Shown here: piece after piece, positions 200-37,853 of the stretch | Layout: every line of letters starts with the position of its first letter | Numbering within the stretch: position 1 is the first letter of the stretch | Assembly: GCA_025782575.1 (NCBI GenBank) | Contig: JALGYY010000035.1 | Coordinates: 1 to 64,000 of the forward strand | Source: a bacterium | GTDB taxonomy: Bacteria > Orphanbacterota > Orphanbacteria > Orphanbacterales > Orphanbacteraceae | DNA length: 64,000 nt | Direction of reading: 5' to 3' | Made by a program: the position numbers and the translations under genes | The notes under the pieces: model-generated | Seen by the model: the letters and a program-made list of their open reading frames with translations, nothing else | Database searches by the model: none | What the model was told of the DNA's origin: nothing

Positions 200-359
200 G
201 TGTGTTCTCAAGTAATTTCTAGATAACCCTGTTCAAAATATTGGCAAATAAAAGGCTCAAGTGGTTCCGTTGAATTGCGATTAGCTTATTAGGGATGGTG
301 TCTTGGAGAATCGCAGCTACCGGTCCACGCCATGGGGCAGGACACCGGAGGGTATGACA

Positions 360-1373
360 ATGGACGGCATCACGATTCCAAAAGCGGATACGGCGGCCAC
401 CCTGATCCGGACCGCAATCAGCGGCCAGTCGCAGGCGAGTCGACCTGATCGAGATGATGAGGTCGCCCGGTCGGCCGAATCCGTCAGATACGCTCAAAAA
501 GAAGCGGTCAAGGTAACCATCACCGAGACCGGTCGTACGATCGCGGACGAGCAGTCGGCCCCGTTCCAGGAGGACTCGGCCATGAATAACTCCCCATCTA
601 GAGAGGAGGACCTGATCGATCACCGCGGCCTTGCAAGGGACGGTACGCTGACAGAGGAGAGAAACAGTAGCAATCAGGCTCGAGTATCAGATATGGAGAG
701 GATCGATCGACGGGTCCGTTCAACGGAGCAGGCCAAGTTCGTCGCTCTCGGCCCCCACTCGAGGGGGGGGGTTACATTCGAATATGAACAGGGACCTAAT
801 GGTCAGCAATACGCTGTGGATGGCAAAGTGCCGATCAATTCATCCCCCTCCACTACTCCGGAGCAGACCATACGAAAAGCGGATACGATCAGACGGGCGG
901 CCATGAACTACGGCAAGCTATCCAAGAATGACCGGAAACAGGCGGCTATCGCCGAGCAGCTGGCGCACGAGGCACGTGCCCAGATGGCCCGCATGGCGAC
1001 GGCCGGAGTGGGGGAGGGTGCGATCGCCCCCGAACTGACCCCAGACCCGGGCGAAGAGGAAGTTAATCCATATACTCCCCGATCAGTGGAGATCAACCTG
1101 ATTGGAGCTCCCAGCGCAGGCGCAATCGAGCCCGATGCCGAATCCATCCCTGAATCGGTCGGACTCCCCGCTACGCCTGGCCCGATCGACACGGTAAGGC
1201 CACAAGGAGAAGTAGCGAAACCCGAATCGGCAGGTATGGAGAAGGCCGTGAATCTGGACGAGAACCCCCCTCTCGACGATACACTCGACTCCCATCCTGA
1301 GGGTGAAATCGGAAACGAATCCGGACCGATGGGAGGGAAAAGAGGAGATAGCTCCCTCAATCTATTTGCCTGA
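360..1373 (+). CDS. SprA-type metalloprotease-like protein, catalytic motif lost
   Basis: A 337-residue protein whose middle part (about residues 115-220) matches the SprA-related putative metalloprotease family (CJM1_0395 type): a conserved ALGP segment, a YEQGPNGxxYAVDGKVPI block, and a TPEQTIRKAxxIRRAAM block. Where the family has HExxH, this protein reads TEQAK at residues 122-126, so both zinc-binding His are replaced. A full paralog with intact HEQAH lies at 50073-50663 (minus), at the far end of the flagellar island. The C-terminal third is acidic and proline-rich with no domain I recognise. ATG at 360 is preferred because GGAGGG (347-352) sits 7 bases upstream; ATG at 354 would be too close, and a TTG at 303 is also in frame. 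A run of nine G lies at 763-771. Probably a non-catalytic paralog, function unknown. Confidence 0.7.
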   Translation: MDGITIPKADTAATLIRTAISGQSQASRPDRDDEVARSAESVRYAQKEAVKVTITETGRTIADEQSAPFQEDSAMNNSPSREEDLIDHRGLARDGTLTEERNSSNQARVSDMERIDRRVRSTEQAKFVALGPHSRGGVTFEYEQGPNGQQYAVDGKVPINSSPSTTPEQTIRKADTIRRAAMNYGKLSKNDRKQAAIAEQLAHEARAQMARMATAGVGEGAIAPELTPDPGEEEVNPYTPRSVEINLIGAPSAGAIEPDAESIPESVGLPATPGPIDTVRPQGEVAKPESAGMEKAVNLDENPPLDDTLDSHPEGEIGNESGPMGGKRGDSSLNLFA

Positions 1374-1704: not shown

Positions 1705-2967
1705 ATGGGTACTCCTTCCAGGCCTTCCACCGAGAGTCATGATGATACCGGCGACACGATCGGATTCACTCTCGGCCAATTTCGCCAGAGTGTGACCGCA
1801 CTGGAAGAATCGTGCGCCATCCTGGAAAAGAGGAGCAGCCGCCTCGACTGGGCTCTTCGGGATGCAAACGAGGACCTTCGGCGGAGCCTGCGTGATCGTG
1901 ACCGTCTCGCTTCCCGGCTCGACAGCATTCTCAGATGCCTCCAGGTAGGGGTAATCGCGGTAGATCTTGATGGCATCATCATCGAGTTCAATGAGTCCGC
2001 AGCTGAAATCAGCGGCAGGACTCGTCAGGAGGTGATCGGCAGGCCCTATTCGGAGATAGTCGGGCTTGCCGGGCCGACCAGGCAGGGTCCCCTCTTTACA
2101 CTCGAGACGGGAACCGCCATACGAAATGAAGAGAGGACCATCGGCACTCCCTCTAGTGACAGGCTTCCCGTCGGCTACAGCACCTCCCTGATCGAGTCGA
2201 AGGAAGGGTGGCCTCTCGGAGCTGTCGAAGTTCTCACCGATCTTTCCGACACGAGAGCGATTACTGAGGAACTCTCCCGCGTCCGGACGACAGCCGCGCT
2301 CGCGGATCTCGCCGTCGAAATGGCTACACAGATCAGGAATCCCCTTTCCGGCGTGAGCGGTTTTTCAGATCTGCTGCTCCATGACATGCAGGAGGATGAT
2401 CCACGACGGGAGCTCGCAAAGAAGATCAACCAGGGAGTTCACGCCGTGGAGAGTGTGGTCACCCGCCTTCTCGACGGAACGGGCGACTACACTCCGTCAC
2501 CCCGCGCGGAGGATCTCCCCCGACTCATTGAAAAGTTACTCGACCGGTTCGAATCATCCAGTCGGAACGAGCCATCCATCAGGATCCACCGTGATTTCGG
2601 TATCGGACCGCTCATGGTCAAAATGATTCCTGACCAGTTGAGTGAAGCGTTTCGCCAGCTTCTCTTGAACGGTGTCGAAGCGATGCCGAACGGGGGCGAC
2701 CTGACCGTGAGAATTGAACGGGTGCCGGCAGATGGGAATGCCCGTCCGATGGTGAACGTTCTTATCAGCGATGTCGGCATGGGGATGACCGACGATGTTG
2801 CGGGAAAGGCACTCTCCCCGTTCTTTACAAGCAAAGTCAATCGACCTGGACTCGGACTGACGACAACCGAGCGCATTGTGACGGGCCACGGAGGAGAGCT
2901 CCACCTGTCTCGAAGGGCCGAAGGTGGCACGACGGCACGTGTACAACTTCCCAGGGAACTGGCATGA
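1705..2967 (+). CDS. PAS sensor histidine kinase, FlrB/AtoS-like, phospho-acceptor His missing
   Basis: A cytoplasmic kinase of 420 residues with no membrane segment. An N-terminal coiled coil (about 20-75) is followed by a PAS domain (about 75-190), a HisKA-like helix (about 190-260) and a HATPase domain (about 280-420). The ATPase parts look intact: an N-box LLLNGVEAM, a DVGMGM box, an FFTSK segment and a GLGL lid. The H-box reads EMATQIRNPL where the family has (A)HEIRNPL, so Thr208 (ACA at 2326-2328) replaces the phospho-accepting His. The frame is clean on both sides, so a frameshift does not explain it. The stop overlaps the activator start in ATGA (2964-2967), so the two are translationally coupled. 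The role is inferred from the family: a flagellar two-component kinase. ATG at 1705 is chosen over TTG at 1615. Confidence 0.85.
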   Translation: MGTPSRPSTESHDDTGDTIGFTLGQFRQSVTALEESCAILEKRSSRLDWALRDANEDLRRSLRDRDRLASRLDSILRCLQVGVIAVDLDGIIIEFNESAAEISGRTRQEVIGRPYSEIVGLAGPTRQGPLFTLETGTAIRNEERTIGTPSSDRLPVGYSTSLIESKEGWPLGAVEVLTDLSDTRAITEELSRVRTTAALADLAVEMATQIRNPLSGVSGFSDLLLHDMQEDDPRRELAKKINQGVHAVESVVTRLLDGTGDYTPSPRAEDLPRLIEKLLDRFESSSRNEPSIRIHRDFGIGPLMVKMIPDQLSEAFRQLLLNGVEAMPNGGDLTVRIERVPADGNARPMVNVLISDVGMGMTDDVAGKALSPFFTSKVNRPGLGLTTTERIVTGHGGELHLSRRAEGGTTARVQLPRELA

Positions 2968-4532
2968 AGCGCCGAAGCACGATCAAAGCGCTCATCTTTG
3001 ATGAGGAAGTGCTGATGAGGGAGTTCCTGGAAGAGCTTCTCTCTCGTAAAGGGCATGGCGTACATCAGGTGGATCGCCCGGCAGACGTAGTCGCCGCGCT
3101 CCACTCCGAACGATTCGACGTCGTATTCATGAGTGCATCCGGAGGAAAGGGAGACAGGCTCGACCTTCTCCGGCGGATTCGAGAAATCGATTCTGCGATC
3201 GGCGTTGTCGTGACGACTGCTGTCGCCCGGCTGGAAGACGCCGTAGAAGCGATGCGACTTGGTGCCTGCGACTATCTGACCAAGCCGGTTACGGCGGAAT
3301 CGATAGACGAAGTCCTCGGTCGCATTTCCGGTGGCCCGGTCGAGCCGGCCTCCGGCCTGTCTGATAAGTCGAAAGAGAGGCTTCTCATCGGAGAGAGCCC
3401 ACCCATGCAGGAACTGGATTCGCTGATCCGTCTTGCGGCATCGACGGATGCCACTGTTCTCGTATCCGGCGAGACCGGAACGGGGAAAGAGCTGATCGCG
3501 CGGGCCATTCATGTCCGAAGCACCAGACGGCACGAGCCTTTTGTACGGTTGAACTGTGCCGCCCTTCCCGAAGCGCTCTATGAGAGTGAACTCTTCGGGC
3601 ATGACCGGGGCGCGTTTACCGGTGCGATTCAGCAGCGAAAGGGGCGGTTCGAGCTCGCTCACCGCGGCACACTGCTCATGGATGAGATTTCCGAAGTGGG
3701 GCTCGGCGTTCAGGCCAAACTGCTCAGAGTGCTGCAGGAAAAAGAATTCGAAAGGGTGGGGGGAACAAAGACGATTCAGGTGGATACCCGCGTCATCGCG
3801 ACGACCAACCGCGATCTCGCCTGTGAGATCCGCGAAGGGCGTTTTCGGTCCGACCTCTACTACAGATTAAGCGTGTTTCCCATCGCCGTCCCCCCCTTGA
3901 GGGAGCGCCGCGATGACATCCCCATGCTGGCAGAGCACTTCATTCGCCTGCAGTCCGGACGACGTGGCCAGGCGCCGAAAGTGATCGCCCCGTCTGCGAT
4001 GGAAATCATGCAGTCTCATGATTGGCCCGGTAACGTACGCCAGCTCGAGAACTGCCTGGAACGGGCGGATCTCATTGCATCCGGCTCGATGATCGGACCG
4101 GAACACCTCGGCGCGATCGCCGGCCCGGAATTAGTTCGTCCCCTGGCTCCGATTCCGCAGGAACGATATGTCGCCCCCTCACTTCGCGATATGGAAACCG
4201 ATCTTCTTCTGCGCACGCTTGACGAGTTCCAGGGAAATCGAACCGAAGCGGCCCGACGTCTCGGAATCACGACGCGTACATTGCGCAACAAGCTTCATCG
4301 GATCGGCATGATGGACTATCTGAAACCTGACGGACGGCAGAGGAAAGATCTTCCCGGTGATGGGAAAGAAGAATCCCACTCCCGGAATCAGACTCCGGTC
4401 TCAATAACCGATACGAATCTCCCTAGCCTTTGCAGCGACAAGGGGATCGGGATACCGGAATCGAATGGTCCGGAATTTGCGGGGACCTCCGGTCAAGGGG
4501 AAAACCGAAGAATCTCAGAGGGGAGACATTAA
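2964..4532 (+). CDS. NtrC/FlrC-type sigma-54 activator with Ser in place of the receiver Asp
   Basis: A 522-residue response regulator: receiver (1-120), AAA+ sigma-54 activation domain (about 140-380), Fis-type helix-turn-helix (about 415-450), and a polar tail of about 70 residues. The AAA+ domain has Walker A GETGTGKE, the GAFTGA loop that contacts sigma-54, Walker B LLMDEI and the YYRLSVF/PLRER arginine-finger region, so it should be active. In the receiver the acidic pair (Asp13-Glu14) and the TKP Lys remain, but the phospho-accepting Asp is Ser57 (AGT at 3132-3134) in FDVVFMSAS. Together with the His-less kinase this removes both known phosphotransfer residues. It most likely activates the sigma-54 promoters before flgB and flgF. 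The 3' end carries the predicted flgB promoter inside its coding sequence. Confidence 0.92.
   Translation: MKRRSTIKALIFDEEVLMREFLEELLSRKGHGVHQVDRPADVVAALHSERFDVVFMSASGGKGDRLDLLRRIREIDSAIGVVVTTAVARLEDAVEAMRLGACDYLTKPVTAESIDEVLGRISGGPVEPASGLSDKSKERLLIGESPPMQELDSLIRLAASTDATVLVSGETGTGKELIARAIHVRSTRRHEPFVRLNCAALPEALYESELFGHDRGAFTGAIQQRKGRFELAHRGTLLMDEISEVGLGVQAKLLRVLQEKEFERVGGTKTIQVDTRVIATTNRDLACEIREGRFRSDLYYRLSVFPIAVPPLRERRDDIPMLAEHFIRLQSGRRGQAPKVIAPSAMEIMQSHDWPGNVRQLENCLERADLIASGSMIGPEHLGAIAGPELVRPLAPIPQERYVAPSLRDMETDLLLRTLDEFQGNRTEAARRLGITTRTLRNKLHRIGMMDYLKPDGRQRKDLPGDGKEESHSRNQTPVSITDTNLPSLCSDKGIGIPESNGPEFAGTSGQGENRRISEGRH
4466..4481 (+). promoter_or_regulatory. sigma-54-type promoter for the flgB operon
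   Basis: TGGTCCGGAATTTGCG has GG at -24 and GC at -12 with the exact 10-base spacing and a TTTGC core. The expected start of transcription is near 4492, leaving a leader of about 42 bases with a GAGGGGAG ribosome binding site before flgB. It lies inside the end of the activator gene. Confidence 0.6.
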
Positions 4533-4533
4533 C

Positions 4534-4932
4534 ATGTCAGACGGTCGCCTCTTTGCCGGAACGAGTATTCCGGCGCTCAAAAAGATCATGGATCTTGGGG
4601 CAGCGAGACAGAGAGCCCGCGCAGGCAACCTGGCGAACGCCGCAGTCGAGGGTTACGAACGCCGAGATGCCCGATTCGCCGACGAAATGAATCGGGCCGG
4701 TCGCAAGAGGGTCAAGATGGCCCACACCCATCCGGGGCATATGGGATCGCCGAAGACCGCAGGTGTAGAAATCGCGGTCAAAGTCGAACCCGGCCTCGAT
4801 GGCACGACAAAGGTCGACATGGAAGAGGAGCTCGTCTCACTGGCGGCGAATCAATTGAAATTCAATCTTGCTGCACGCCTGGCCAATCTTCGGATCATGG
4901 GTCTCCGGGCGAGTATTCAGGGTAGATCGTAG
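4534..4932 (+). CDS. flgB: flagellar basal-body rod protein FlgB
   Basis: 132 residues, the usual length for FlgB, the proximal rod subunit exported through the flagellar type III gate. The N-terminal rod motif is divergent: an ARAGNLANAAVEGY segment (about residues 29-42) matches the NIANxxTPGY pattern of rod proteins. The C-terminal half (VEPGLDGTTKVDMEEELVSL, then AANQLKFNLAARLANLRIMG) is typical for the family. GAGGGGAG at 4518-4525 sets the ATG at 4534; a longer in-frame start at 4465 has no ribosome binding site. First gene of a long operon running to flhA, 11 bases before flgC. Confidence 0.93.
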   Translation: MSDGRLFAGTSIPALKKIMDLGAARQRARAGNLANAAVEGYERRDARFADEMNRAGRKRVKMAHTHPGHMGSPKTAGVEIAVKVEPGLDGTTKVDMEEELVSLAANQLKFNLAARLANLRIMGLRASIQGRS

Positions 4933-4943
4933 GGAGTGAATCG

Positions 4944-5441
4944 ATGAGTTCGGACCTCTTTGGAGCAATGTCCATCAGCGCGTCAGGAATGAGCGCACAG
5001 AGATTACGGATGGAAGCGATCGCGAAGAATCTGGCCAATGCCGATGCCACACGGTCGGCGGACGGCGAGGTCTATCAGAGGAAGCGAGTCTCGATCACGG
5101 CGTCAGAAGCGGGACAGAACGATCCCGGCCGCCGGCACTCGAGCCGTATCACCCTTACCCGAACTGCGCCGGGGCACATTCCGGCGGCGGGTCTTCGGCA
5201 AGCTCCGGAGAAGTCCCTTCCTGTGGTTACAGCAAAGGAAGTGACCAGCGAATCGGATGCTTTCATCTACGTCTACGAGCCCCATCACCCTGACGCGGAC
5301 GAGAAGGGTTATATCAAAATGCCCGACATCGACACGATGACGGAGATGGTCGACATGGTGGCGGCCACACGGGCCTACGAAGCCAATCTGGCGGCAATGA
5401 AGGCCTATCAGAACATGGTGAACAAGTCCCTCGACATCTGA
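4944..5441 (+). CDS. flgC: flagellar basal-body rod protein FlgC
   Basis: 165 residues, somewhat longer than the common 135-150. The N-terminus (FGAMSISASGMSAQRLRMEAIAKNLANADA) and the C-terminus (GYIKMPDIDTMTEMVDMVAA, then TRAYEANLAAMKAYQNMVNKSLDI) are diagnostic for this proximal rod protein. The N- and C-terminal helices form the coiled coil shared by axial proteins. It is placed between flgB and fliE as in most flagellar operons, with short intergenic spacing. Confidence 0.96.
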   Translation: MSSDLFGAMSISASGMSAQRLRMEAIAKNLANADATRSADGEVYQRKRVSITASEAGQNDPGRRHSSRITLTRTAPGHIPAAGLRQAPEKSLPVVTAKEVTSESDAFIYVYEPHHPDADEKGYIKMPDIDTMTEMVDMVAATRAYEANLAAMKAYQNMVNKSLDI

Positions 5442-5461
5442 GTCGAGCAGGAGAGGTTTCG

Positions 5462-5782
5462 ATGACTTTCGATCTGTCCCGATCCATTCCGATACCCCAG
5501 GGGATCCCGGGGACCGGCATACAGGGAGTGAATCCCCTTCGGCCGGGAAAGAACGATGGGGGTCCCAGCTTCGCAGAAACGCTCAAAGGTTATCTGAATG
5601 ACGTGAGTCGCCTCGAACAGGAAGCGGACAAGCAGGTGCAGGGCATTCTGGAAGGGAAAGCAGTCGATCCCCACGAAGTGATGCTCGCCGTGCAGGAGGC
5701 CAATCTGGCGCTCGACCTGCTGATTGAGATACGAAACAAGCTGATGGAAGCATACAGGGAAATCCAGAGAACCCCCGTTTAG
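5462..5782 (+). CDS. fliE: flagellar hook-basal body complex protein FliE
   Basis: 106 residues. FliE joins the MS-ring to the proximal rod. The second half (FAETLKGYLNDVSRLEQEAD, then the VDPHEVMLAVQEANLALDLL segment and the NKLMEAYREIQRTPV ending) is the conserved FliE domain. The preceding GGAG is 6-9 bases from the ATG. It lies directly before fliF, its structural partner. Confidence 0.96.
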   Translation: MTFDLSRSIPIPQGIPGTGIQGVNPLRPGKNDGGPSFAETLKGYLNDVSRLEQEADKQVQGILEGKAVDPHEVMLAVQEANLALDLLIEIRNKLMEAYREIQRTPV

Positions 5783-5815
5783 AAACGGTAGCGGCTCCTG
5801 GAGGAGGAAGAGCAC

Positions 5816-7381
5816 GTGGCGGAAGCAGTGAAGAATCTGGTGGCTCGCTTCGGCGTCCAGTGGAAGGGGCTCGGTCCCGGACAACGTTTTCTGGCGGTCT
5901 CCCTCGTGGTCGGCGCCGTACTTACCATTGCCGTTTCCGTTTTAGTCACCCGTCACGTGACCTACGCCATTTTATATGCCGGGCTCGAGTCTACCGAGGC
6001 GAGCGAAGTGGTAGACAAACTGCGTGAGACCAAGACACCGTTCCGACTGAAAGATTCCGGACGCACGATTCTGGTTCCCGAAGCAGAAGTCTATTCGATC
6101 AGACTTCAGATGGCCGGAGAAGGGGGCCCCGGATCAGGAGGCACGGGTTACGAGATTTTCGACGAGAGCAGCTTCGGTATGACTAATTTCATGCAGAAAG
6201 TTAACTACCGGCGGGCGCTCGAAGGAGAACTGACCCGCACCATCCGTCAAATGGATGAAGTGATCTCCGCACGGGTCCATCTCGTAATCCCGGAGAGAAC
6301 GCTATTCGCTGACGACCTGGCCCAGACATCCGCGTCGGTCATGATTCGCGTCAAACCGAGTGTGCGACTTTCCCGCAAACAGGTCGAAGGGATTGCGAGG
6401 CTCGTTTCGGGAAGCGTTCAAGGGCTGGAACCGGCGAACGTCAACATCCTGGATTATTACGGAAACCTGCTCACTGCGGGCGACTCCGAGCTGAGCCTCG
6501 ACGGATCGGGCACGGGGCGATTCGAAGTGGAATCAAACCTGGAGCGAGCGCTCGAACGGAAAGCTCAAACCCTCCTTGACCGCGTAGTCGGCCCGGGGAA
6601 CGCGATCGTTCGCGTGAACGCGGTGCTCGATTTTCAACGCGTTGAGCGGGACTCCGAGACATACGACCCGGACAACGCCTCCGTTCGGAGCGAAGAGGTG
6701 AGCGAAGAATCCGGCTCGGAGCGCGGAGAGTTCAGGAACTCCGTTACCAACTACGAATTGAACCGGACAGTAGAGAAGCTGACCAAGACCCCCGGCGACG
6801 TGATCAAGCTGAGTGTGGCTGTAACTGTGGGAGGCCACTATGTGATGCCCGAAGGAGCCGAGGGCGAGGGAAAAGACGTGGGACCCCAGTGGGTTCCTCG
6901 AGATGTCGCTGAACTCGAGGAGCTGGCGGCCCTCGTCAGAAATGCCGTCGGTTTCGACCAGGAACGGGGCGACCAGTTTCATATCGCCTGTGTCCCGCTC
7001 GACCGGGAGCACCTGATGACAGAGAGAGCCGATCTTGCCAAGGCGGAACGAAATCTCATGATCAGGGAGATCGTCGAGAAACTGCTCTGGCTCATTGGTG
7101 CAATCGTCTTCTTCGTCATCATGCGCCGGATCATCGGTTCCATTGCACGGGTGATGTCCGAGGCGGTCCCGCCACCGGTCGCGGCAACGGAAGCAATGCC
7201 CGCCGCTCAGTCAGCAATTGCTCCGGGCAGGTCGGGAGCAGCGCCCGCAGGCGGTGGTGAAGTGGGTCGGGTTGAACAGGAAATCGGTTCGGTCTCCGCT
7301 CGGATATCCGAGCTCGCGACGGAACGGCCGGGCGAATCGGCAGGCGTGCTTCGTAGCATGATCACGGAGGATGACGCCTAG
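5816..7381 (+). CDS. fliF: flagellar MS-ring protein FliF
   Basis: 521 residues forming the inner-membrane MS-ring. An N-terminal membrane helix (about 24-46) is followed by the ring-building motifs (YAGLESTEASEVVDKL, NFMQKVNYRRALEGELTRTI, RVHLVIPERTLF), a periplasmic region, a second membrane helix (about 423-442, LLWLIGAIVFFVIMRRIIG) and a cytoplasmic tail that should bind FliG. The start is GTG with GGAGGAGG about 8 bases upstream. The C-terminal tail is alanine- and glycine-rich before the FliG-binding end. It ends inside a possible early start of fliG. Confidence 0.96.
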   Translation: MAEAVKNLVARFGVQWKGLGPGQRFLAVSLVVGAVLTIAVSVLVTRHVTYAILYAGLESTEASEVVDKLRETKTPFRLKDSGRTILVPEAEVYSIRLQMAGEGGPGSGGTGYEIFDESSFGMTNFMQKVNYRRALEGELTRTIRQMDEVISARVHLVIPERTLFADDLAQTSASVMIRVKPSVRLSRKQVEGIARLVSGSVQGLEPANVNILDYYGNLLTAGDSELSLDGSGTGRFEVESNLERALERKAQTLLDRVVGPGNAIVRVNAVLDFQRVERDSETYDPDNASVRSEEVSEESGSERGEFRNSVTNYELNRTVEKLTKTPGDVIKLSVAVTVGGHYVMPEGAEGEGKDVGPQWVPRDVAELEELAALVRNAVGFDQERGDQFHIACVPLDREHLMTERADLAKAERNLMIREIVEKLLWLIGAIVFFVIMRRIIGSIARVMSEAVPPPVAATEAMPAAQSAIAPGRSGAAPAGGGEVGRVEQEIGSVSARISELATERPGESAGVLRSMITEDDA

Positions 7382-7382
7382 C

Positions 7383-8393
7383 ATGGCTGAATTGACGGCC
7401 ACGGAAATGACGGCCCGACAGAAAGCGGCCGTCGTGGTACTCAGCCTAGGAGCAGGGGCCGACACGATTTTGAGAGAGCTTGGAGGGAGCGAAGTGGAGC
7501 TCCTGGCCGAACAGATTCTTCAGCTCGGTGACGTACCGGAAGAGGTAAGAGACGAAGTGCTTACGGAATTCCAAAACAGATTGTCGGCCACGCAGGCGCC
7601 GACCAGCGGACCGTTGGAACGGGCGGCTGAAGTGTTGGAAGTCAGCCTTGGAAAAGCCGCGGGTGACGAGGCGCTGAAGCGCATGGAATGGCGGGCCAAT
7701 CAGGATCTCATCCGTTTCGCGAAGAAGGACCCGGCCAAGATGGCTGAACTCGTTGCCGTAGAACATCCGCAGACGATCGCTTTTCTCATGACCCAGATCG
7801 ATGCCGAGCTTTCCGGACGGGTCATCTCGGAGATGGACGAAGAGATCAGGCCCGAAATCGCCTGGAGGATCGCCAACATGTCGGAAATCGCACCTCACAC
7901 CGCCGGGGCTGTGCATCGGGCGTTGGGCCCGATGGTCAAGCCGGAAGAGGCTGGTGTGGTGGTGGAGCGTCTCGAGCAGGTGGGGGGCGAAAAGAAGGTC
8001 GCCGACCTTCTGAACATGGTGACTGTGGAGATGCAGCGGGATGTGTTCGAGAGCATGGAATCCAAAGATTCCGACCAGGTCATGCGCATCCGAAAGCTGA
8101 TGTTCGTCTTTCGCGATCTTCTGCTGCTCGACGATCGGGGCATGCAGAGAGTCCTCAAAGAGGTGGATCAGAAAGATCTGAGTCTCGCTCTCTATGGGGC
8201 GGACGAAGATGTGAAGGATAAGTTCTTCCGGAATATGTCCTCCCGTGCGGCCGAAACGATCAGGGATGAGATGGAATTCATGGCCCAGGTCAAGAAAGAG
8301 GATGTGGAAGCGGCTCGCGATCGGATTATCGAGTCAGTAAGAACGCTCGAAGAGCAGGGTGAAGTCGTTGTCAACCGGGGAGGGGAAGAGTAG
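7383..8393 (+). CDS. fliG: flagellar motor switch protein FliG
   Basis: 336 residues, normal length. FliG links the MS-ring to FliM and meets the stator. The N-terminal MTARQKAAVVVLSLGAG, the middle EHPQTIAFLMTQIDAE motif and the C-terminal torque helix region (VFRDLLLLDDRGMQRVLKEV, then DVKDKFFRNMSSRAAETI) are all present, with the charged residues typical of the torque helix. ATG at 7383 is taken as start; an ATG at 7371 that overlaps fliF lies immediately after GGAGG and is too close to it. Confidence 0.96.
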   Translation: MAELTATEMTARQKAAVVVLSLGAGADTILRELGGSEVELLAEQILQLGDVPEEVRDEVLTEFQNRLSATQAPTSGPLERAAEVLEVSLGKAAGDEALKRMEWRANQDLIRFAKKDPAKMAELVAVEHPQTIAFLMTQIDAELSGRVISEMDEEIRPEIAWRIANMSEIAPHTAGAVHRALGPMVKPEEAGVVVERLEQVGGEKKVADLLNMVTVEMQRDVFESMESKDSDQVMRIRKLMFVFRDLLLLDDRGMQRVLKEVDQKDLSLALYGADEDVKDKFFRNMSSRAAETIRDEMEFMAQVKKEDVEAARDRIIESVRTLEEQGEVVVNRGGEE

Positions 8394-9035
8394 ATGGCCC
8401 CCCGGGTGATCAAGTCGCAGCACATTCTGGCGGAACGCTTCCCCCTGGTGATACCCGAATCATTCCTCGGTACCGAAGCCGGGGCGAGCATGGACGATCT
8501 TCGCGCACGAATCCTCGAGCTCGAAACACTGCTCGAGGCACAGGAAAGAGACGGGCAGGAAGCGGTGGAAACGGCGATCAAGGAGACCGAATCCGCTCTT
8601 CGCTCGGAAGTGGCCGAAGTAGTCGGGCGATTCGAATCGGCTGTGAAGCAAATCAATGTCGATCGGAGAACCCTGCTTCGTGAGGCCGAGAGCGAAGTCA
8701 TCAGACTGGCGATCGCCGTAGCCGGCCGAATCGTTCATGCCCATATCAAAGCGGACGAGCAGGTTGTTCGTGAAACTGTCAGCCGTGCTCTTACACTCGC
8801 GGCGGATCGTGAAACGATCGTCGTTCGAGTCCACCCGGATGATAAGCATGTCATCGAGGAGCAGCGAGCAACCTGGCTGGCCGAGCTGGAATCATCACGG
8901 TCACTCGACATTCGAGCCGACGAGCGAATCGCCCGCGGCGGGTGCATCGTGGAGACTGAAAGTGGCAACGTGGATGCGCGAATTGATGAGCAGCTCGAAG
9001 TACTCGCCAGCGCTCTTCAGGAGAAAGTACAGTGA
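8394..9035 (+). CDS. fliH: flagellar export ATPase regulator FliH
   Basis: 213 residues. FliH holds the FliI ATPase at the export gate. A long coiled coil (about residues 35-95, [18 protein letters not shown] and following) precedes the FliH/YscL C-terminal domain with the [33 protein letters not shown], and [20 protein letters not shown] segments. The ATG directly follows the fliG stop and the end overlaps the fliI start, so it is coupled on both sides. Confidence 0.93.
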
Positions 9036-10345
9036 GCCCTCTGGCTATCGATCGCTATCTGGAGACGGTAGACGCCGTCGAACCGATCCGCCAGACCGGG
9101 CGGGTGGCTGAAGTGGTCGGTCTCGTTCTCGAATCGCAGGGGCCGGCTGTTTCGCTTGGCGAATCCTGTCTCATCGAAGCGTTTGGCGGCGAACGTCAGA
9201 TTCCGGCGGAAGTCGTAGGCTTCCGGGGGGACCGCGTTCTGCTCATGGCGCTCGAAGAAATGAGTGGAGTGGCGTCAGGCGCTTCTGTGGCGGCGACGGG
9301 ACGCCCACAGACCATTCCGGTGGGAACAGAACTTCTCGGCCGCGTCCTGGACGGCATGGGCCGACCGATCGACCGCCTCGGGGAGCTCACCACCAAGCAA
9401 TCCCGCCCGCTGATCGCCTCACCTCCCGGGCCCCTGTCCCGTAAGCGGATCACGACACCCCTCTCCACGGGGATCCGCTCGATCGACTCTCTCATTACGT
9501 GCGGACGTGGTCAGCGGGTCGGAATCTTCTCAGGAAGCGGCGTCGGAAAGAGCACCGTGCTCGGCATGATCGCCCGCAACTGCGATGCCGACGTGAACGT
9601 AATCGCTCTCATTGGTGAGCGGGGGCGTGAGGTGCGGGAGTTCCTGGAGCGCGATCTGGGCGAAGAAGGGCTCAAGAAATCGGTGGTAGTCACAGTTACC
9701 TCCGATGAGGCCGCCCTCATGCGCGTCAAGGGGGCGCTCGCGGCAACGAGCATCGCTGAATATTTCCGAGATCAAGGGCTCGACGTCCTGCTTCTCATGG
9801 ATTCCGTTACGCGGGTAGCGATGGCACAGCGCGAAATCGGTCTTGCCGCCGGGGAGCCGCCGACGACCAAGGGCTACACCCCTTCAGTATTCGCTCTCCT
9901 TCCCAAGCTGCTCGAACGGGCGGGAACCTCCTCCCGAGGGAGTATCACGGGGCTCTACACCGTTCTGGTTGAAGGGGATGACATGAACGATCCGGTGGCC
10001 GACCACGCGCGATCGATTCTCGACGGCCACGTCACATTGTCCCGGAATCTGGCTAGCCAGAATCACTATCCCCCGGTTGATGTCCTCGAGTCGGTGAGCC
10101 GGGTCATGCGTGATGTCGTCGACCAGGATCATCTGCGCGCCGCCGCCGAAACACGAGAGCTTCTCGCCACATACCGGGAAGCGGAAGACCTGATTCGAAT
10201 CGGCGCCTACGTGAAAGGGAGCGATCCCCGGATCGACAGGGCGATCGTCAAGATTGAAGCGATACGCGGTTTTCTGCGCCAGGGGATTGAAGAGTACGCG
10301 GAGTTCGGTGAGACAATCACCGCACTTCGGGAACTGTTGAACTGA
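9032..10345 (+). CDS. fliI: flagellum-specific export ATPase FliI
   Basis: 437 residues, homologous to the F1 ATPase beta subunit. The P-loop [10 protein letters not shown] is at about residue 167, followed by an [13 protein letters not shown] segment, a Walker [18 protein letters not shown], and the family motif [27 protein letters not shown]. It powers unfolding and delivery of axial proteins together with FliH and FliJ. The GTG start overlaps the fliH stop (GTGA). All catalytic residues visible to me are conserved. Confidence 0.97.
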
Positions 10346-10352
10346 GGGCCCG

Positions 10353-10808
10353 ATGAAGAAGTTTCACTTTCGACTGCAACGGGTGCTCGACACGAGAAGA
10401 AACTGGGAGGACAGGTTGAAACAGGCATTCGCATCGGCTGAACGAATCGCGATGAGGGAGGAGGAGAGGCTCGTTACTTACATGGAGGAGCAGGAATCCA
10501 CCCAGGGTCAGCTTGTGAGAGCCCGTCAGATTTCGATCGATCCGGTAATCGAAAACCGGTTCGTCACCTATTTTACTCAGCTGGCTGAATGGATCAAACA
10601 CCAGGAGCGGGCTGTCGAGCACACAAAAGAAGCCGCGGAACGGAAGCGACAGGAGCTGATTCGCTGCTCTCAGGATCGGAAGGCTCTCGAGAAGCTTCGA
10701 GAGAAAGCACTCGTCCGATACAGGCTGGAGCAGGATCGGGAAGAAATAAAGGAACTCGATGAGATCGGGCGGAACGGCTTCATCCGAAGCGCTCGTTCCG
10801 CGCACTGA
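10353..10808 (+). CDS. fliJ: flagellar export protein FliJ
   Basis: 151 residues, almost entirely coiled coil and rich in Arg, Glu and Gln, starting with the family signature MKKFHFRLQRVLDTR. FliJ is the stalk-like partner of FliI and shuttles export chaperones. It follows fliI by 7 bases. Its identity rests on the N-terminal motif, length and position, since FliJ sequences are otherwise poorly conserved. Confidence 0.9.
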   Translation: MKKFHFRLQRVLDTRRNWEDRLKQAFASAERIAMREEERLVTYMEEQESTQGQLVRARQISIDPVIENRFVTYFTQLAEWIKHQERAVEHTKEAAERKRQELIRCSQDRKALEKLREKALVRYRLEQDREEIKELDEIGRNGFIRSARSAH

Positions 10809-10834
10809 TTCACCGGAAAGCGAGGGATTCGCAA

Positions 10835-11539
10835 GTGGCGGATGACAAAGAGAAAAAAGAAGAGAAGAAAGACGGCATGAACCCGATCGTCCCGCTCGTA
10901 GCGGGGGGAATCGGTATCTTCCTCTTTTCGATTCCGATCTTCCTGTTCGCCAAAGGGATGATCAGCATTGAAGCGCCCCGGCTCCGACCGTCGGAGGAGC
11001 TTGTTATGGCGGACACCGTTCTGACCGCGCTTTACCTTGCCGCCGAGGAGCAGAAGGCAGCCGATCAAGCGGGTGAGTCGTCCGCGATAGCGCCACCTGC
11101 CACGAAGTCGGAATCGACCGATGGGCAGCCTGACCCGACAGGTGAGACAGTGCCGGCCGTCACGGAGCCCGCCGAGACCGGGGAGAAAGAATCGGATCCC
11201 GTTGAAACTGTCGTAACCGGCTCGCCGGAAGACGAGCAGCCAGGTGAAGCGCCTGCCGTTTCCGAGAGTGAAATACCTGTTCCGGATGTCGTTCCCGCGG
11301 CAACGCCCCCCGAATCGTTGCTGCCGTACGACCCGGCGAAACTGTCCAGGCTCGTAAAAGTGTACGACAAGATGCGCCCCAAGCAGGTTGCGACAATTCT
11401 GAGCACCATGCCCGACCGTCAGGCGGCACAGATTCTGGGGAGTATGAAAGACAAAACGGCCGCCCAGACGCTGGCGGCGATTACACCGAAGCGTGCAGCC
11501 CGGCTGAGCGAACTGATAGTGAGGATGTATCAAGATTGA
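10835..11539 (+). CDS. MotE/YlxF-like flagellar protein with MgtE-N-type domain
   Basis: 234 residues. A lysine- and glutamate-rich start precedes one membrane helix (about 17-39, IVPLVAGGIGIFLFSIPIFLFAKG), then a Ser/Thr/Pro/Glu-rich low-complexity linker (about 75-160). The C-terminal MgtE-N-like domain (about 165-234) has the segments LVKVYDKMRPKQVATILSTM and AAQILGSMKDKTAAQTLAAI. This architecture and the place between fliJ and fliK match YlxF of Firmicutes and MotE of alphaproteobacteria, which stabilises a stator protein in the periplasm. GTG start. Its stop overlaps the TTG start of fliK. Confidence 0.75.
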   Translation: MADDKEKKEEKKDGMNPIVPLVAGGIGIFLFSIPIFLFAKGMISIEAPRLRPSEELVMADTVLTALYLAAEEQKAADQAGESSAIAPPATKSESTDGQPDPTGETVPAVTEPAETGEKESDPVETVVTGSPEDEQPGEAPAVSESEIPVPDVVPAATPPESLLPYDPAKLSRLVKVYDKMRPKQVATILSTMPDRQAAQILGSMKDKTAAQTLAAITPKRAARLSELIVRMYQD

Positions 11540-22327: not shown

Positions 22328-24442
22328 ATGAGCGCCAATCCAGCCGTCTTGCCGAATAAACAGAGAAGGGTGCCGAGCGCGGACATCGTCCTCGTAGTCG
22401 GCGTAATTTCCATCATCGGCATCATGATCGTTCCCCTACCCACCTGGATTCTAGACATCCTGCTGACGTTCAATATTGCCTTCTCACTGGTAATACTCGC
22501 GAACTCGCTTTTCGTGAGCGCCCCGCTTCAGATATCCGTCTTTCCGTCACTCATGCTGATCGTGACTCTCTTTCGCCTGTCGCTGAACGTCGCATCCACA
22601 CGACTCATCTTGGGCCAGGCCTACGCAGGGGACGTCATCTCCGCCTTCGGTTCGTTCGTCATTCGAGACAACTACATCGTCGGTTTCGTGATCTTTATTA
22701 TCCTGGTGGCGATCCAGTTCTTCGTGATCGTCCGTGGTACGGAACGAAACGCAGAGGTGGGAGCACGATTTACGTTGGATGCGATGCCCGGAAAACAGAT
22801 GGCCATCGACGCCGATCTGAGTGCGGGGTTGATCAACGAAGAAGAAGCCCGGCAGCGCCGTGATGACATTTCGCGGGAGGCGAACTTCTACGGCTCAATG
22901 GACGGCGCCGCCAAATTCGTCAAAGGGGATGCGGTAGCCGGTATTATTATCACCCTCGTCAATATACTCGCCGGATTCATCGTCGGGATGGTACAGCTCG
23001 GCATGGCTCCCGATGAATCGCTCAGGGTCTACACGCGGCTTACAATCGGTGATGGTCTCGTCAGTCAGATTCCGGCCCTCCTCGTTTCGACTGCGGCCGG
23101 TATCGTGGTCAGCCGGGCCGCTGCGGCCGGGAACCTCGGCACCGAGATCAAAGACCAGCTGTTCAGCAATCGCAAACCACTCACTATTGTAGCAGGAGCG
23201 CTCGTCTGCCTGGCAATCGTGCCGGGGATTCCTGCGGTTCCGCTCATCGTTCTTGCCGGGGGACTCCTCCTCGTTGCCCGATCAGCAACGGCCGCCCGGT
23301 CTACCGAGAAAGCAGATGAAAAGCCGGAAGAGACCGAGGAGAAACCGGAGGAGACTCCCGAGGATTACCTGCGGATCGACCGGCTGGAGTTGGCGATCGG
23401 ATACGGCCTCATCCCGATGATGGACGCCGAAGGGGGGAGCGACTTTCTGGACCGGGTCGTCGCTCTCCGCCGTCAGGTGGCAAGCGACGTCGGGATCATC
23501 GTCCCCCGCATTCGGGTACGTGACGATATCCGGCTCCAGCCTGACGAATACGAGATTCGTATCAAGAGCCATCGTGTGGCGGGCGGGACCGTCCGTGCCG
23601 GACACTTCCTCGCAATGGGAGCCGAAAGCGGGCTGAACAAGATCGAGGGAATCGAAACGAAGGAACCGGCGTTCGGCCTTCGTGCCAAGTGGGTCAATTC
23701 CGCGCAGAAAAGCGCCGCAGAGGACCAGGGTCTTACCGTAGTCGGAACGAGCGTCGTCCTCGCGACTCACCTAACCGAGATGATCAAGAAGCATGCATGG
23801 GAAGTTCTTTCCCGACAGGATGTCCAGAGTCTTCTCGATGAAATCAACAAGGAGAATCCGGCACTGATCAAAGATGTAATCCCGGACCAGGTGAGCCTCG
23901 GAACGATTCACCGGGTTCTTCAAAGTCTACTGAAGGAGCGAGTGCCCATAAGAGATCTGGGGTCGATCCTCGAGACCATCATCGATTATTCATCAACCGT
24001 CAAGGATATCGATCTTCTTACGGAATACGTCCGCGCCGGTCTCAGTCGGGCCATCTGCAACGACCATATGGGGAAGAATCGGCAGCTTCCGGTGATCACG
24101 ATTGATCCCGCGTTGGAACAGGAATTTACGCAGGCGCTTCGGGATGGAGGGGGGCAGCTCGTAACAGCTCTGGCTCCCGTCAAGGTCCAAAGAATCCTGG
24201 ACAACCTCAAATCCATGATCAAGGGAGCCCTTGATCGAGGAGAACGGCCGGCGATCATATGTTCCCCGCAGATCCGTCTAGGGATACGCAGGCTCACGGA
24301 GGCCTCTTTCCCGAATCAGCCGGTGCTCTCCTATCATGAAATTGCACCAGATGTCGATCTTTCGTCAGTAGGGGTCCTGAGTGCCGATGCACCGGCTCCA
24401 CCGGAACCGGTTGGCGCACTGGCAGGAGCAACGACGGAGTGA
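22328..24442 (+). CDS. flhA: flagellar export gate protein FlhA
   Basis: 704 residues. The N-terminal membrane half carries the FHIPEP signature region (VRGTERNAEVGARFTLDAMP, GKQMAIDADLSAGLINEEEA, GAAKFVKGDAVAGIII). An acidic linker (about 325-340, EKPEETEEKPEETPED) precedes the cytoplasmic ring domain that docks chaperone-substrate complexes. Start ATG is one base after the flhB stop. The end is followed by fliA without the flhF and flhG genes that commonly intervene. Confidence 0.97.
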   Translation: MSANPAVLPNKQRRVPSADIVLVVGVISIIGIMIVPLPTWILDILLTFNIAFSLVILANSLFVSAPLQISVFPSLMLIVTLFRLSLNVASTRLILGQAYAGDVISAFGSFVIRDNYIVGFVIFIILVAIQFFVIVRGTERNAEVGARFTLDAMPGKQMAIDADLSAGLINEEEARQRRDDISREANFYGSMDGAAKFVKGDAVAGIIITLVNILAGFIVGMVQLGMAPDESLRVYTRLTIGDGLVSQIPALLVSTAAGIVVSRAAAAGNLGTEIKDQLFSNRKPLTIVAGALVCLAIVPGIPAVPLIVLAGGLLLVARSATAARSTEKADEKPEETEEKPEETPEDYLRIDRLELAIGYGLIPMMDAEGGSDFLDRVVALRRQVASDVGIIVPRIRVRDDIRLQPDEYEIRIKSHRVAGGTVRAGHFLAMGAESGLNKIEGIETKEPAFGLRAKWVNSAQKSAAEDQGLTVVGTSVVLATHLTEMIKKHAWEVLSRQDVQSLLDEINKENPALIKDVIPDQVSLGTIHRVLQSLLKERVPIRDLGSILETIIDYSSTVKDIDLLTEYVRAGLSRAICNDHMGKNRQLPVITIDPALEQEFTQALRDGGGQLVTALAPVKVQRILDNLKSMIKGALDRGERPAIICSPQIRLGIRRLTEASFPNQPVLSYHEIAPDVDLSSVGVLSADAPAPPEPVGALAGATTE

Positions 24443-24452
24443 TCGATCATTC

Positions 24453-25196
24453 ATGGGTGAATCACCTGGAACAGAAGTTTATCGGGACGCCACTTTCGAA
24501 CGTCGAGAAAGATCGATACTCGACGGGATGTCTCTCGTAAAGAAAATTGCGAGGGGGATTGCCGGAAAGGTCCCCAACACGGTCGATCCTCTCGACCTGG
24601 AAAGTGCCGGCACGATCGGATTGATCCGCGCGGTCGATCTATTCGACCCTGACCGGGGTGTCCCGTTCGAAGCGTTCGCCTCCCACTATGTCCGAGGAGC
24701 GGTTCTCGACCATCTTCGTGCTCTCGACCCTCTTCCGTACTCGACACGATCGAGAATCCGAAAGATCGAAAAATCCTACATCGATCTCGAGAGGGAGACC
24801 GGCCGAACACCTTCAGATGAAGAGGTTTCCCGACACACCGGAATTGACGAGAGGGATATCTCACGACTTCTTGGAGAAGCGGCCAACCTTACTATTCGGT
24901 CGCTACAGGACGATCAGGACTCTGCCACGCCTGATATTCCGGACAAGGGGGAGGCGGCCGCCAAGATCTATGAGCAAGTGGAAAACCAGCAGCTCGCTGA
25001 AATCCTTGTCGGTTTTCTGGGGCACCTCCCGGAAAGAGATCGCCTCATTCTCTCGCTCTACTATTTTGATGAACTCAAAATGAAGGAGATTGCCGAGCTG
25101 TTCGAGCTTACGGAATCTCGTGTTTCTCAGCTCCACAGCAGGGCCATTACAATCCTTCGAGCCCGAATGAGAACCGTTCTCGAGGAGAAGTCATGA
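24453..25196 (+). CDS. fliA: flagellar sigma factor FliA (sigma-28 / WhiG family)
   Basis: 247 residues. Region 2 (DPLDLESAGTIGLIRAVDLF, then FEAFASHYVRGAVLDHLRAL), region 3 (RTPSDEEVSRHTGID) and region 4 (LPERDRLILSLYYFDELKMK, then EIAELFELTESRVSQLHSRA) are all present. It directs late flagellar promoters and is normally held by FlgM, here at 46179-46481. ATG at 24453 follows flhA by 10 bases; a start inside flhA at 24381 is unlikely. Its stop overlaps the next small gene in ATGA. Confidence 0.93.
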   Translation: MGESPGTEVYRDATFERRERSILDGMSLVKKIARGIAGKVPNTVDPLDLESAGTIGLIRAVDLFDPDRGVPFEAFASHYVRGAVLDHLRALDPLPYSTRSRIRKIEKSYIDLERETGRTPSDEEVSRHTGIDERDISRLLGEAANLTIRSLQDDQDSATPDIPDKGEAAAKIYEQVENQQLAEILVGFLGHLPERDRLILSLYYFDELKMKEIAELFELTESRVSQLHSRAITILRARMRTVLEEKS

Positions 25197-27029: not shown

Positions 27030-27045
27030 TGGCACGCGCTTTGCA
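27030..27045 (+). promoter_or_regulatory. sigma-54 promoter for the flgF operon
   Basis: TGGCACGCGCTTTGCA is a near-perfect sigma-54 element: the TGGCACG -24 box and TTGCA -12 box with exact spacing. Transcription should start near 27056, leaving about 44 bases with GAGGAGAGAGG before flgF. It lies in a 190-base gap (26910-27099) that otherwise shows nothing I recognise. It starts the second main flagellar operon. Confidence 0.85.
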
Positions 27046-35491: not shown

Positions 35492-35683
35492 ATGTTGCTC
35501 ATCACAAGAAGATCAGGCCAGTCGATCCGAATCGGCGAAGACATCGTCATCACGATCCGGACCGTCCGAGGCAAGCAGGTTCAGGTTGCGATAGAAGCGC
35601 CACTCGACATCATCGTCGTTCGCACCGAGCTCCCCCCGAAGGAAATCGCCGGCGGGGCGGAGGAACCGGCCCATGATCGTTGA
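35492..35683 (+). CDS. csrA: carbon storage/translational regulator CsrA
   Basis: 63 residues. MLLITRRSGQSIRIGEDIVI starts the protein, then TIRTVRGKQVQVAIEAPLDI and VVRTELPPKEI follow. Leu-rich strand 1 and the Arg in VVRTEL, used for binding GGA in RNA hairpin loops, are kept. ATG at 35492 is the conserved family start; an upstream in-frame ATG at 35456 lies inside fliW. The end overlaps the GT9 gene by 11 bases. The likely target is the fliC leader at 43381-43403. Confidence 0.94.
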   Translation: MLLITRRSGQSIRIGEDIVITIRTVRGKQVQVAIEAPLDIIVVRTELPPKEIAGGAEEPAHDR

Positions 35684-36812
35684 TCTCGATTGCCGCCATT
35701 TCCCCGGCGACAGGCCGTGCGTCCATCACAAGACTTCCGGGGCTATCTGTGAAACCTGTAAACATGGCGAGAAGGTCGGATTCCGAGTCCTGATTATTAA
35801 GCTCGATGCCCTGGGCGATGTCCTTCGGACCACGTGCATCCTTCCGGCAATCAGGAGCGAGTGGCCCAGGTGTCAGATCACATGGATTACCTCGCCTGAG
35901 GCGATCCCCCTGCTCTCCGGCAATCCACTGATCGATGAGCGCTGCTCACTGCATGATGCGCCTGCCCGCCTGGCCGCAGAGCATTTTGACCTTGTCCTCA
36001 ATCCCGATGCCTCCAAACGAAGCGCCGCCCTGGCGTCGATGGCGAGTGCGAATGAGAAGCGAGGTTATCTGCTTCGCCCAGACGGCCAGGTCGTCCCCGC
36101 GAACGACGAAGCGGCTGACTGGCTCGTGCTGGGGGCGAGGGATGACATGAAGAAGGCCAACCGTGAAACTTATCAGTCCCACATTCATCGGCAGCTATGC
36201 CTTGATCCGTCCGAGCAGCAAATCTCACTGATTTTGACAGCCTCCGAACGTGAAGACGCGCGCCGGCTTCTCGCTAAGTCAGGTGTATCGGAGCGACCGA
36301 TGGTCGGATTGAACACCGGATCCAGCAAGAGATGGAAACACAAGAGCTGGATACCGGAGAGATTCGCGGAACTGGCTAGACTTCTTGCAGGAGAAAAGTG
36401 CGGACCGGTTGTTCTTATCGGCGGACCTGCGGAGCAGGATCAGAACCGCTGGATTGAAAAAGCGAGCGGTGGGTCGGCAGTGGCGATCGACACGGGGTCC
36501 GGCCTCAGAGCGTATGCGGCTCTCGTAGGATCGTGCGGCGTGCTCGTTACCGGCGACACCCTGGGACTCCACGTTGCGATCGCTCTTGAGCGGCGGGTGG
36601 TGGCGCTTTTCGGACCGACATCATCGTCGGAGATCGATCTATACGGCTGCGGAATCCGCGTGGTTCCCGACCTGGATTGTATTTGCTGTTATCAAGGAGA
36701 CTGCGATGTCTCTCCCCATTGCATGGAATCCATTTCTGTTGAATCGGTCCTTTCAAAAATTCTCGATCAGGCCGGCCTCGTCCCTGAGGGGATGCTCGCC
36801 CAAACCATCTGA
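35673..36812 (+). CDS. GT9 (heptosyltransferase-like) glycosyltransferase with Cys-rich N-terminus
   Basis: 379 residues. Residues about 7-30 hold four Cys (CRHFPGDRPC, then CETCKHG), a metal-binding-like knuckle found in a GT9 subgroup. The catalytic part begins VGFRVLIIKLDALGDVLRTT and ends with the GDTLGLHVAIALERRVVALF and FGPTSSSEIDLYG segments typical of GT9. The C-terminus has more Cys (CICCYQGDC, then PHCM). It is likely an ADP- or NDP-sugar transferase. Translationally overlapped with csrA and within a block before fliC, so flagellin glycosylation is the best inference; LPS or surface glycan is an alternative. Confidence 0.85.
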   Translation: MIVDLDCRHFPGDRPCVHHKTSGAICETCKHGEKVGFRVLIIKLDALGDVLRTTCILPAIRSEWPRCQITWITSPEAIPLLSGNPLIDERCSLHDAPARLAAEHFDLVLNPDASKRSAALASMASANEKRGYLLRPDGQVVPANDEAADWLVLGARDDMKKANRETYQSHIHRQLCLDPSEQQISLILTASEREDARRLLAKSGVSERPMVGLNTGSSKRWKHKSWIPERFAELARLLAGEKCGPVVLIGGPAEQDQNRWIEKASGGSAVAIDTGSGLRAYAALVGSCGVLVTGDTLGLHVAIALERRVVALFGPTSSSEIDLYGCGIRVVPDLDCICCYQGDCDVSPHCMESISVESVLSKILDQAGLVPEGMLAQTI

Positions 36813-36829
36813 AGGAGGAAGTGAAGAAA

Positions 36830-37831
36830 ATGGAGTTTACCGGCGAGCGACTCGTTCCCACGGCGGATGGCTGGGACGACCTCTTCTTCGAGCACATCAC
36901 TCGCTATCGGTTCGCGGCGTCATTGGTGAAAGGCAAGCACGTTCTCGACGCGGGATCAGGGTGCGGTTACGGCGCCTGTCACATGGCACGTCGCGGCGCT
37001 CAATCTGTTTCCGGGATCGATATCGCGTCGGAAGCGGTGAATTACGCACGTGAGCACTTCAAAGAGGATGGTCTCCGGTTCGATACCGCCGACGTGCTCG
37101 ACACCGGCCTCGAGACGGGGAGCTTTGATCGCATCGTCTCTTTCGAGGTTTTTGAGCATGTGGAGCGGCCCGATCGATTTCTGAACGAGATGAAACGTCT
37201 GCTCGCTCCAGGCGGCCTCTTTCTGGTTTCCACTCCCAACGTGCATACATATGTGGCCGGGGGCAAGGACGGTGAGAATCCATTTCATGTAAAGGAATAT
37301 TCCCCGGATGAATTCCAGGAGCTGCTGGAAGCGAGCTTCTCTGTTATTGAACTCTACGCTCAGACAGGGACTGCCGGTATCGGAATCATTCCCTGTCACA
37401 CAGGCGAAGACCGAAGCCCGGAATGCCACGCCCGTCTCGGGCTCGTTTTCCCACCCTCCGAATCTCCGTGGGGCGAACCGGCTCCCCCACGTGTCGACAT
37501 CGACACATGCTCCTACATGATTGCGATCTGCGCCATGGAGCCGATCCCCGCCGACCTTCTTCCCTCGCCGGAATGGTACGTGCTCGGGGAGTCACTTTCC
37601 GGCAGGGATGCCGATTATCAGTCCGTTCAAGAGCTTCAGGAAAACCTGATCTCTCGCACGCGGTGGGTAGAAGAGTTGCAGCGAGAAATCGATCACCGTG
37701 ATCAGACGATTCGCACACTCCAGGCAGAATTTGATGACCGATCCAGATGGGCGCTCGAACTCGATGCGAAAGTCAGGGAGCTGACCAGCCAGATCGGCAA
37801 GCTTAAGAACCGGGCGGGAATCAGCCCGTGA
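36830..37831 (+). CDS. class I SAM-dependent methyltransferase with C-terminal coiled coil
   Basis: 333 residues. MEFTGERLVP is the standard start of a methyltransferase family linked to glycan clusters. The SAM-binding motif VLDAGSGCGYGACHMA is at about residues 38-53, followed by the SGIDIASEAVNYA acidic loop and FDRIVSFEVFEHV (motif III region). The last 80 residues form a coiled coil (VQELQENLISRTRWVEELQR and DHRDQTIRTLQAEFDDRSRW). ATG at 36830 is preferred over GTG at 36821, which is too close to AAGGAGG (36812-36818). It probably methylates a sugar or glycan made by neighbouring transferases. Confidence 0.85.
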   Translation: MEFTGERLVPTADGWDDLFFEHITRYRFAASLVKGKHVLDAGSGCGYGACHMARRGAQSVSGIDIASEAVNYAREHFKEDGLRFDTADVLDTGLETGSFDRIVSFEVFEHVERPDRFLNEMKRLLAPGGLFLVSTPNVHTYVAGGKDGENPFHVKEYSPDEFQELLEASFSVIELYAQTGTAGIGIIPCHTGEDRSPECHARLGLVFPPSESPWGEPAPPRVDIDTCSYMIAICAMEPIPADLLPSPEWYVLGESLSGRDADYQSVQELQENLISRTRWVEELQREIDHRDQTIRTLQAEFDDRSRWALELDAKVRELTSQIGKLKNRAGISP

Positions 37832-37853
37832 ACTCCAGGGAAGGAGCTTCGTC

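Follow-up and report, generated by a model that had tools for sequence, protein, structure and literature searches.

A predicted pseudo-histidine kinase paired with a pseudo-receiver sigma-54 activator in a bacterial flagellar operon

The flagellar activator FleQ is a master regulator under the control of c-di-GMP and FleN, and acts without a paired kinase. The FlgS-FlgR, FlrB-FlrC and FleS-FleR pairs use His-Asp phosphotransfer, and related flagellar systems are known to sense the MS ring, the rotor and the export apparatus (PMC7064773). In Caulobacter, FliX regulates FlbD without phosphorylation, and the FlbD receiver lacks key residues (PMC3096577, PMC3930126); in this case, the activator is controlled by direct binding of a non-kinase partner, and the output comprises rod and hook genes. 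The same organism provides DivL, a histidine kinase fold that has lost its His and persists as a binding module, with a conserved Tyr at the His site; DivL is a sensor of DivK~P coupled to CckA, and its ATP binding is weak (PMC4211667). Pseudo-histidine kinases and pseudo-receivers are each known already, and the pairing of both in one flagellar operon is a new variant. The published base rates are low, with the His missing in 0.9% of HisKA domains and pseudo-receivers making up 2.0% of receivers, and the switching mechanisms of bacterial pseudo-receivers are a mystery according to a 2025 review, in which 18 of 20 atypical regulators are orphans (PMC12632262). The pseudo-receiver described here has an obvious partner in its own pseudo-kinase, so its switching can be put to a direct test, and a natural series is available in close relatives whose receivers range from intact to decayed.

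The pair lies in a 64,000-nucleotide stretch of bacterial DNA (the window). It resembles FlgS-FlgR, FlrB-FlrC and FleS-FleR in its cytoplasmic coiled-coil/PAS kinase, its sigma-54 activator, its flagellar linkage and its probable checkpoint role (PMC7064773), but differs from these phosphotransfer systems in that the His is absent throughout its clade, and the Asp is absent in part of it. The features of the operon are as follows:

1705-2967, + strand: pseudo-histidine kinase gene, with N-terminal coiled coil, PAS, DHp and CA domains (translation, Pfam, AlphaFold2)
2326-2328, + strand: ACA, encoding Thr208 at the H-box phosphoacceptor position, in EMATQIRNPL (translation and alignment)
2668-2895, + strand: N, G1, F and G2 boxes, residues N322 to G397 in the CA domain, with ATP-binding residues intact
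2964-4532, + strand: sigma-54-dependent activator gene, with a degenerate receiver, AAA+ domain with GAFTGA, and Fis-type HTH
3132-3134, + strand: AGT, encoding Ser57 at the receiver phosphoacceptor position, in FDVVFMSAS (translation and alignment)
4534-11539, + strand: flgB, flgC, fliE, fliF, fliG, fliH, fliI, fliJ and a MgtE_N/FliG_M-like protein gene, directly 3' of the pair, in an order kept in relatives

The kinase reading frame runs from the ATG at 1705 to the TGA ending at 2967, and no transmembrane helix is evident in the window kinase. PAS and HATPase_c matches lie above the Pfam cut-off and HisKA falls just under it, while an AlphaFold2 model (mean pLDDT of 83.7, with a shallow alignment behind it) comprises a coiled coil, PAS, DHp and CA. 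An initial annotation of this DNA had described a Thr in place of the H-box His and intact ATP-binding boxes, and both descriptions hold: in an alignment with 25 other flagellar kinases, Thr208 occupies the H-box His column, and N322, D356, G358, P372, F373, G382 and G384 are invariant in 26/26 kinases aligned, whereas the His varies. One relative, G001, has a kinase G1 box without its second Gly (DSGEW), and the residues that are invariant in and peculiar to the clade are T386 and T393 in the CA domain and C37 in the coiled coil. The phosphoacceptor His of the canonical FlgSR/FlrBC/FleSR type is thus replaced by Thr208 here and missing in 6/6 orthologs, and the protein combines a histidine kinase fold (DHp and CA), kept by selection, with the absence of this residue, as defines a pseudo-histidine kinase. 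Judging from its sequence, the window kinase would lack autokinase activity on His. As in DivL, the phosphoacceptor His has been replaced and the protein kept, with a binding role that would be comparable; unlike in DivL, no single residue has taken the place of the His, the ATP boxes appear undamaged, and the adjacent gene encodes a degenerate sigma-54 activator.

The kinase stop and the activator start share ATGA at 2964-2967, the overlap that had been annotated, and Pfam recognizes Response_reg, Sigma54_activat, AAA lid and Fis HTH in the activator. Alignment with 23 regulators places Ser57 in the acceptor-Asp column, in agreement with the annotated substitution, so that the window genome carries Ser57 where the canonical flagellar two-component type has its Asp. 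The description of the rest of the activator as intact applies to the AAA+ domain with its GAFTGA loop and to the HTH, but is too strong for the receiver, because D-E replaces D-D as the acidic pair and the MPG loop following the Asp is missing; T85 and K107 are still present, giving an active-site quintet of DESTK. The AlphaFold2 model, again with a shallow alignment behind it, predicts an ordinary receiver (a five-strand alpha/beta fold), AAA+ and HTH. The sigma-54 AAA+ output with GAFTGA, the Fis-type HTH and the flagellar linkage of the canonical systems are all present. The activator also resembles FleQ and FlrA, as an NtrC-type flagellar activator with a pseudo-receiver, but whereas those activators have no neighboring cognate kinase, the genes here form an overlapping pair that is maintained in all orthologs. 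Among the flagellar loci surveyed below, the Asp-less activators outside the clade (L136 2812-4206 and L156) are likewise not in a kinase-regulator pair, unlike those of the clade. At the level of sequence, the pair can be assigned with confidence as a pseudo-kinase and its pseudo-receiver.

The window's phylum was sampled by seven genomes from one family, in which the orthologous pair is present in 5/5 FliG-bearing genomes and absent from both genomes without FliG; a sixth orthologous pair occurs in G277, which is assigned by taxonomy to another phylum. The pair is carried only by these six genomes, and every genome is apparently a metagenome assembly. The HK-RR-flgB-flgC-fliE-fliF-fliG order is identical in every member whose contig extends far enough to show it. 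The H-box position reads Thr in the window genome (G000), Arg in G001 and G003, and Ser in G002, G005 and G277. We reject sequencing or assembly error as the source of the missing His, because independent genomes of other genera also lack it, with different residues.

To place this substitution in a wider context, we surveyed about 120 flagellar loci around FliE from a broad set of families. In this survey, 50 kinase matches near FliE carry His at the H-box position (a few of these rows being one gene counted in two overlapping loci), and the non-His matches come solely from this clade; five kinase matches are partial pieces that lack the H-box column. A clade profile recovers the six orthologs at E values of 1e-180 or better, with the next match at 1e-108, and His is present in 24/24 of the next-best matches in other genomes (a set that partly overlaps the survey), as well as in 14/14 paralogous kinases from the clade's own genomes. 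The many intact kinases in the genome, and the retention of ATP boxes with loss of the acceptor, would suit a heterodimer in which the ATP domain phosphorylates the His of another, intact kinase that signals elsewhere, leaving the neighboring activator to be regulated otherwise. We consider this very unlikely, as no candidate partner kinase is seen in the flagellar cluster, and no genome breaks the tight pairing of the kinase with its activator.

The initial annotation had proposed a switch that is either phosphorylation-independent or phosphorylated on Thr/Ser, with conservation of these residues in related genomes as the check. The related genomes confirm the missing His clade-wide, while Thr208 and Ser57 themselves vary. 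Both residues are phosphorylatable in principle, and Ser takes the H-box position in three of the orthologs (G002, G005, G277); against this, the same position is Arg in G001 and G003, the receiver position reads S, D, D, D, E, E, and the DHp domain has no H/D/S/T/Y/C column with clade-wide conservation. It is therefore barely credible that Thr208 and Ser57 carry phosphate in place of His and Asp, and a new acceptor residue elsewhere in the DHp domain is unlikely for the same reason. We also rejected a nearby alternative His or Asp, since no DHp acceptor column is conserved and the only conserved receiver Asp, D103, is also conserved in outgroups. Of the two proposed switches, what stands is that His-Asp phosphotransfer appears to have been given up throughout the clade.

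The two losses had also been described as coordinated and matched in both partners, which the relatives do not bear out: the His is missing in 6/6 clade genomes, and the Asp in only 3/6. In a tree of concatenated kinase and regulator sequences (30 pairs, 866 columns; the G015 and G037 pairs were left out, as no FliE match was found there and their flagellar role is not established), the six His-less pairs form one clade (100/100) whose sister is the His-bearing flagellar pair of G140 (100/100), and the simplest account of this topology would be a single loss of the His, in the clade's common ancestor. The receiver phosphoacceptor is Ser in the window genome, Asp in G001, G003 and G277, and Glu in G002 and G005. 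The active-site quintet (two acids, Asp, Thr, Lys) is DDDTK in G277 and G001, DGDAK in G003 and EAEAK in G002 and G005, whereas the remaining regulators paired with a kinase in the surveyed flagellar loci all have DDDTK, EDDTK or DDDSK. Judged by this distribution, kinase-paired receivers decayed after His loss, and only where the His is gone. The Asp was lost later than the His, by the window genome and by genus g3 (G002/G005), and an AU test does not separate one Asp loss from two (p 0.476). In G002/G005 (L033, L034 loci), the change from Asp to Glu is found together with loss of the acidic pair, and a long branch (2.07) leads to their genus in the kinase-regulator tree. The losses are thus stepwise rather than matched, since the His went in the clade ancestor and the Asp later, and only in some members.

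The complete receivers in G277 and G001 bring in a further explanation, that of a phosphatase-only role, in which the His-less kinase strips phosphate that has been put on the activator by another kinase or by acetyl phosphate, and the Asp-less species keep the binding function only. The conserved His is dispensable for HisKA phosphatase activity (PMC12632262), and the His+4 residue, thought to serve the phosphatase reaction, is Asn in G000, G001, G003 and G277. However, such a role is inapplicable to the window genome and to G002/G005, because their receivers lack the Asp, and G002/G005 have Ser at +4 and Lys at +1, yet are under strong purifying selection. Taking both sides into account, we regard this explanation as unlikely.

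The pair is under strong purifying selection. We estimated dN/dS by the Nei-Gojobori method for G002 versus G005, which are diverged enough for a rate test, and obtained values of 0.048 for the kinase overall (0.026 for DHp and 0.098 for CA) and, for the activator, of 0.089 for the receiver, 0.064 for AAA+/HTH and 0.49 for the interdomain linker. A pseudogene is rejected on the basis of the open frames and low dN/dS. These values also bear on the proposal that the arrangement is a vestige, with an activator that is constitutive or set by its expression level and a kinase gene that is a relic. In G002/G005, the Glu that replaces Asp may act as a phosphorylation mimic, an effect that is established for NtrC. 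Expression-controlled, constitutively active pseudo-receivers are moreover a proposed class (PMC12632262). Nevertheless, a relic is hard to reconcile with the kinase and DHp values and open frames, or with the presence of the pair in every flagellated member and its absence from non-flagellated ones, and we consider it distinctly unlikely.

Our preferred reading, to which we assign a probability of roughly 0.6, is a two-component pair without a phosphorelay, in which the pseudo-kinase would gate the activator by direct binding. Direct-contact signaling is the most likely mechanism because the kinase His has been lost and, in some species, the regulator Asp as well. The cytoplasmic, dimeric pseudo-histidine kinase probably still binds ATP and would still sense the state of flagellar assembly, without self-phosphorylation on His; it would bind the activator's receiver directly and in a conformation-dependent manner, changing the oligomeric state of the activator, as FliX does with FlbD. 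Within this mechanism, we infer the ATP binding, the signal sensed, the binding of the activator and the promoters activated. After the ancestral loss of the His, the receiver phosphorylation site would have become dispensable and decayed with the rest of the protein kept, in a putative series that runs from intact (G277 and G001) through partial (G003) to loss of the Asp (window genome and G002/G005). We note that the retention of all five receiver active-site residues in G277 and G001 counts against direct-contact gating, as signaling entirely free of phosphate should have no use for them, and that another phosphodonor or a phosphatase role could lie behind these complete receivers. We would give about even odds to the broader reading that a complete pair in one operon has been converted from phosphotransfer to pure contact signaling, with the conversion steps visible in living relatives. 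As read in these relatives, the steps would be the His first, and then the receiver acidic pair, Thr and Asp.

The closest parallel is FliX-FlbD, with which the pair shares a sigma-54 flagellar activator whose receiver is missing key phosphorylation residues, and by analogy with which contact is proposed here. Unlike FliX, which has no kinship to histidine kinases, the partner here would be the activator's own former kinase, encoded in the same operon. No FliX-type partner was found in the six clade genomes. FlhF, which usually accompanies flagellar two-component systems in polar flagellates, likewise had no match above the curated cut-off in these six genomes.

On the output side, rpoN is present in all clade genomes, and the window contains an exact sigma-54 promoter:

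27030-27044, + strand: exact sigma-54 -24/-12 promoter TGGCACGCGCTTTGC, with the flgF start, at 27100, 55 bases further on

Only 0.01 exact -24/-12 matches are expected in the window by chance, and flgF is preceded by an exact site, at a distance of 40-57 bases, in the window genome, G001, G003 and G002; the G277 contig ends short of the flgF promoter region, placing it outside this comparison. A looser pattern, with one mismatch, is no commoner than chance in the window. The sigma-54 output has outlived the phosphorelay, because the exact promoter before flgF has been kept in the clade and rpoN is found throughout. Judging from this arrangement, the adjacent activator likely drives the flgF promoter, and the output of the pair would be this promoter before flgF and the rod genes. 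Control of the sigma-54 flagellar cascade, as initially annotated, is thus supported as far as linkage to a conserved sigma-54 flagellar promoter, while the driving of that promoter by the activator is a probable further step.

Several other observations were made in the flagellar cluster. Two SprA-related proteins (PF12118) flank it, at 303-1373 (+) and 50073-50663 (-), the former lying directly upstream of the kinase and matched by a protein in the corresponding position of G001 (45% identity). The fliG of G277 (loci L193/L039) is 57% identical to that of the window, compared with 39% for the fliG of G140, from G277's own phylum; the likeness of the G277 cluster to the window could reflect whole-cluster transfer or taxonomic misplacement. 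A FliA-type sigma factor gene directly follows flhA (22328-25196), and the product of 10835-11539, between fliJ and fliK, gives a weak MgtE_N and FliG_M match and is conserved in the clade. Finally, glycosyltransferases and a methyltransferase are encoded inside the cluster at 35673-43254, just 5' of a flagellin gene, with one protein of this stretch having 1301 residues and TPRs, and the stretch is possibly a flagellin glycosylation island.
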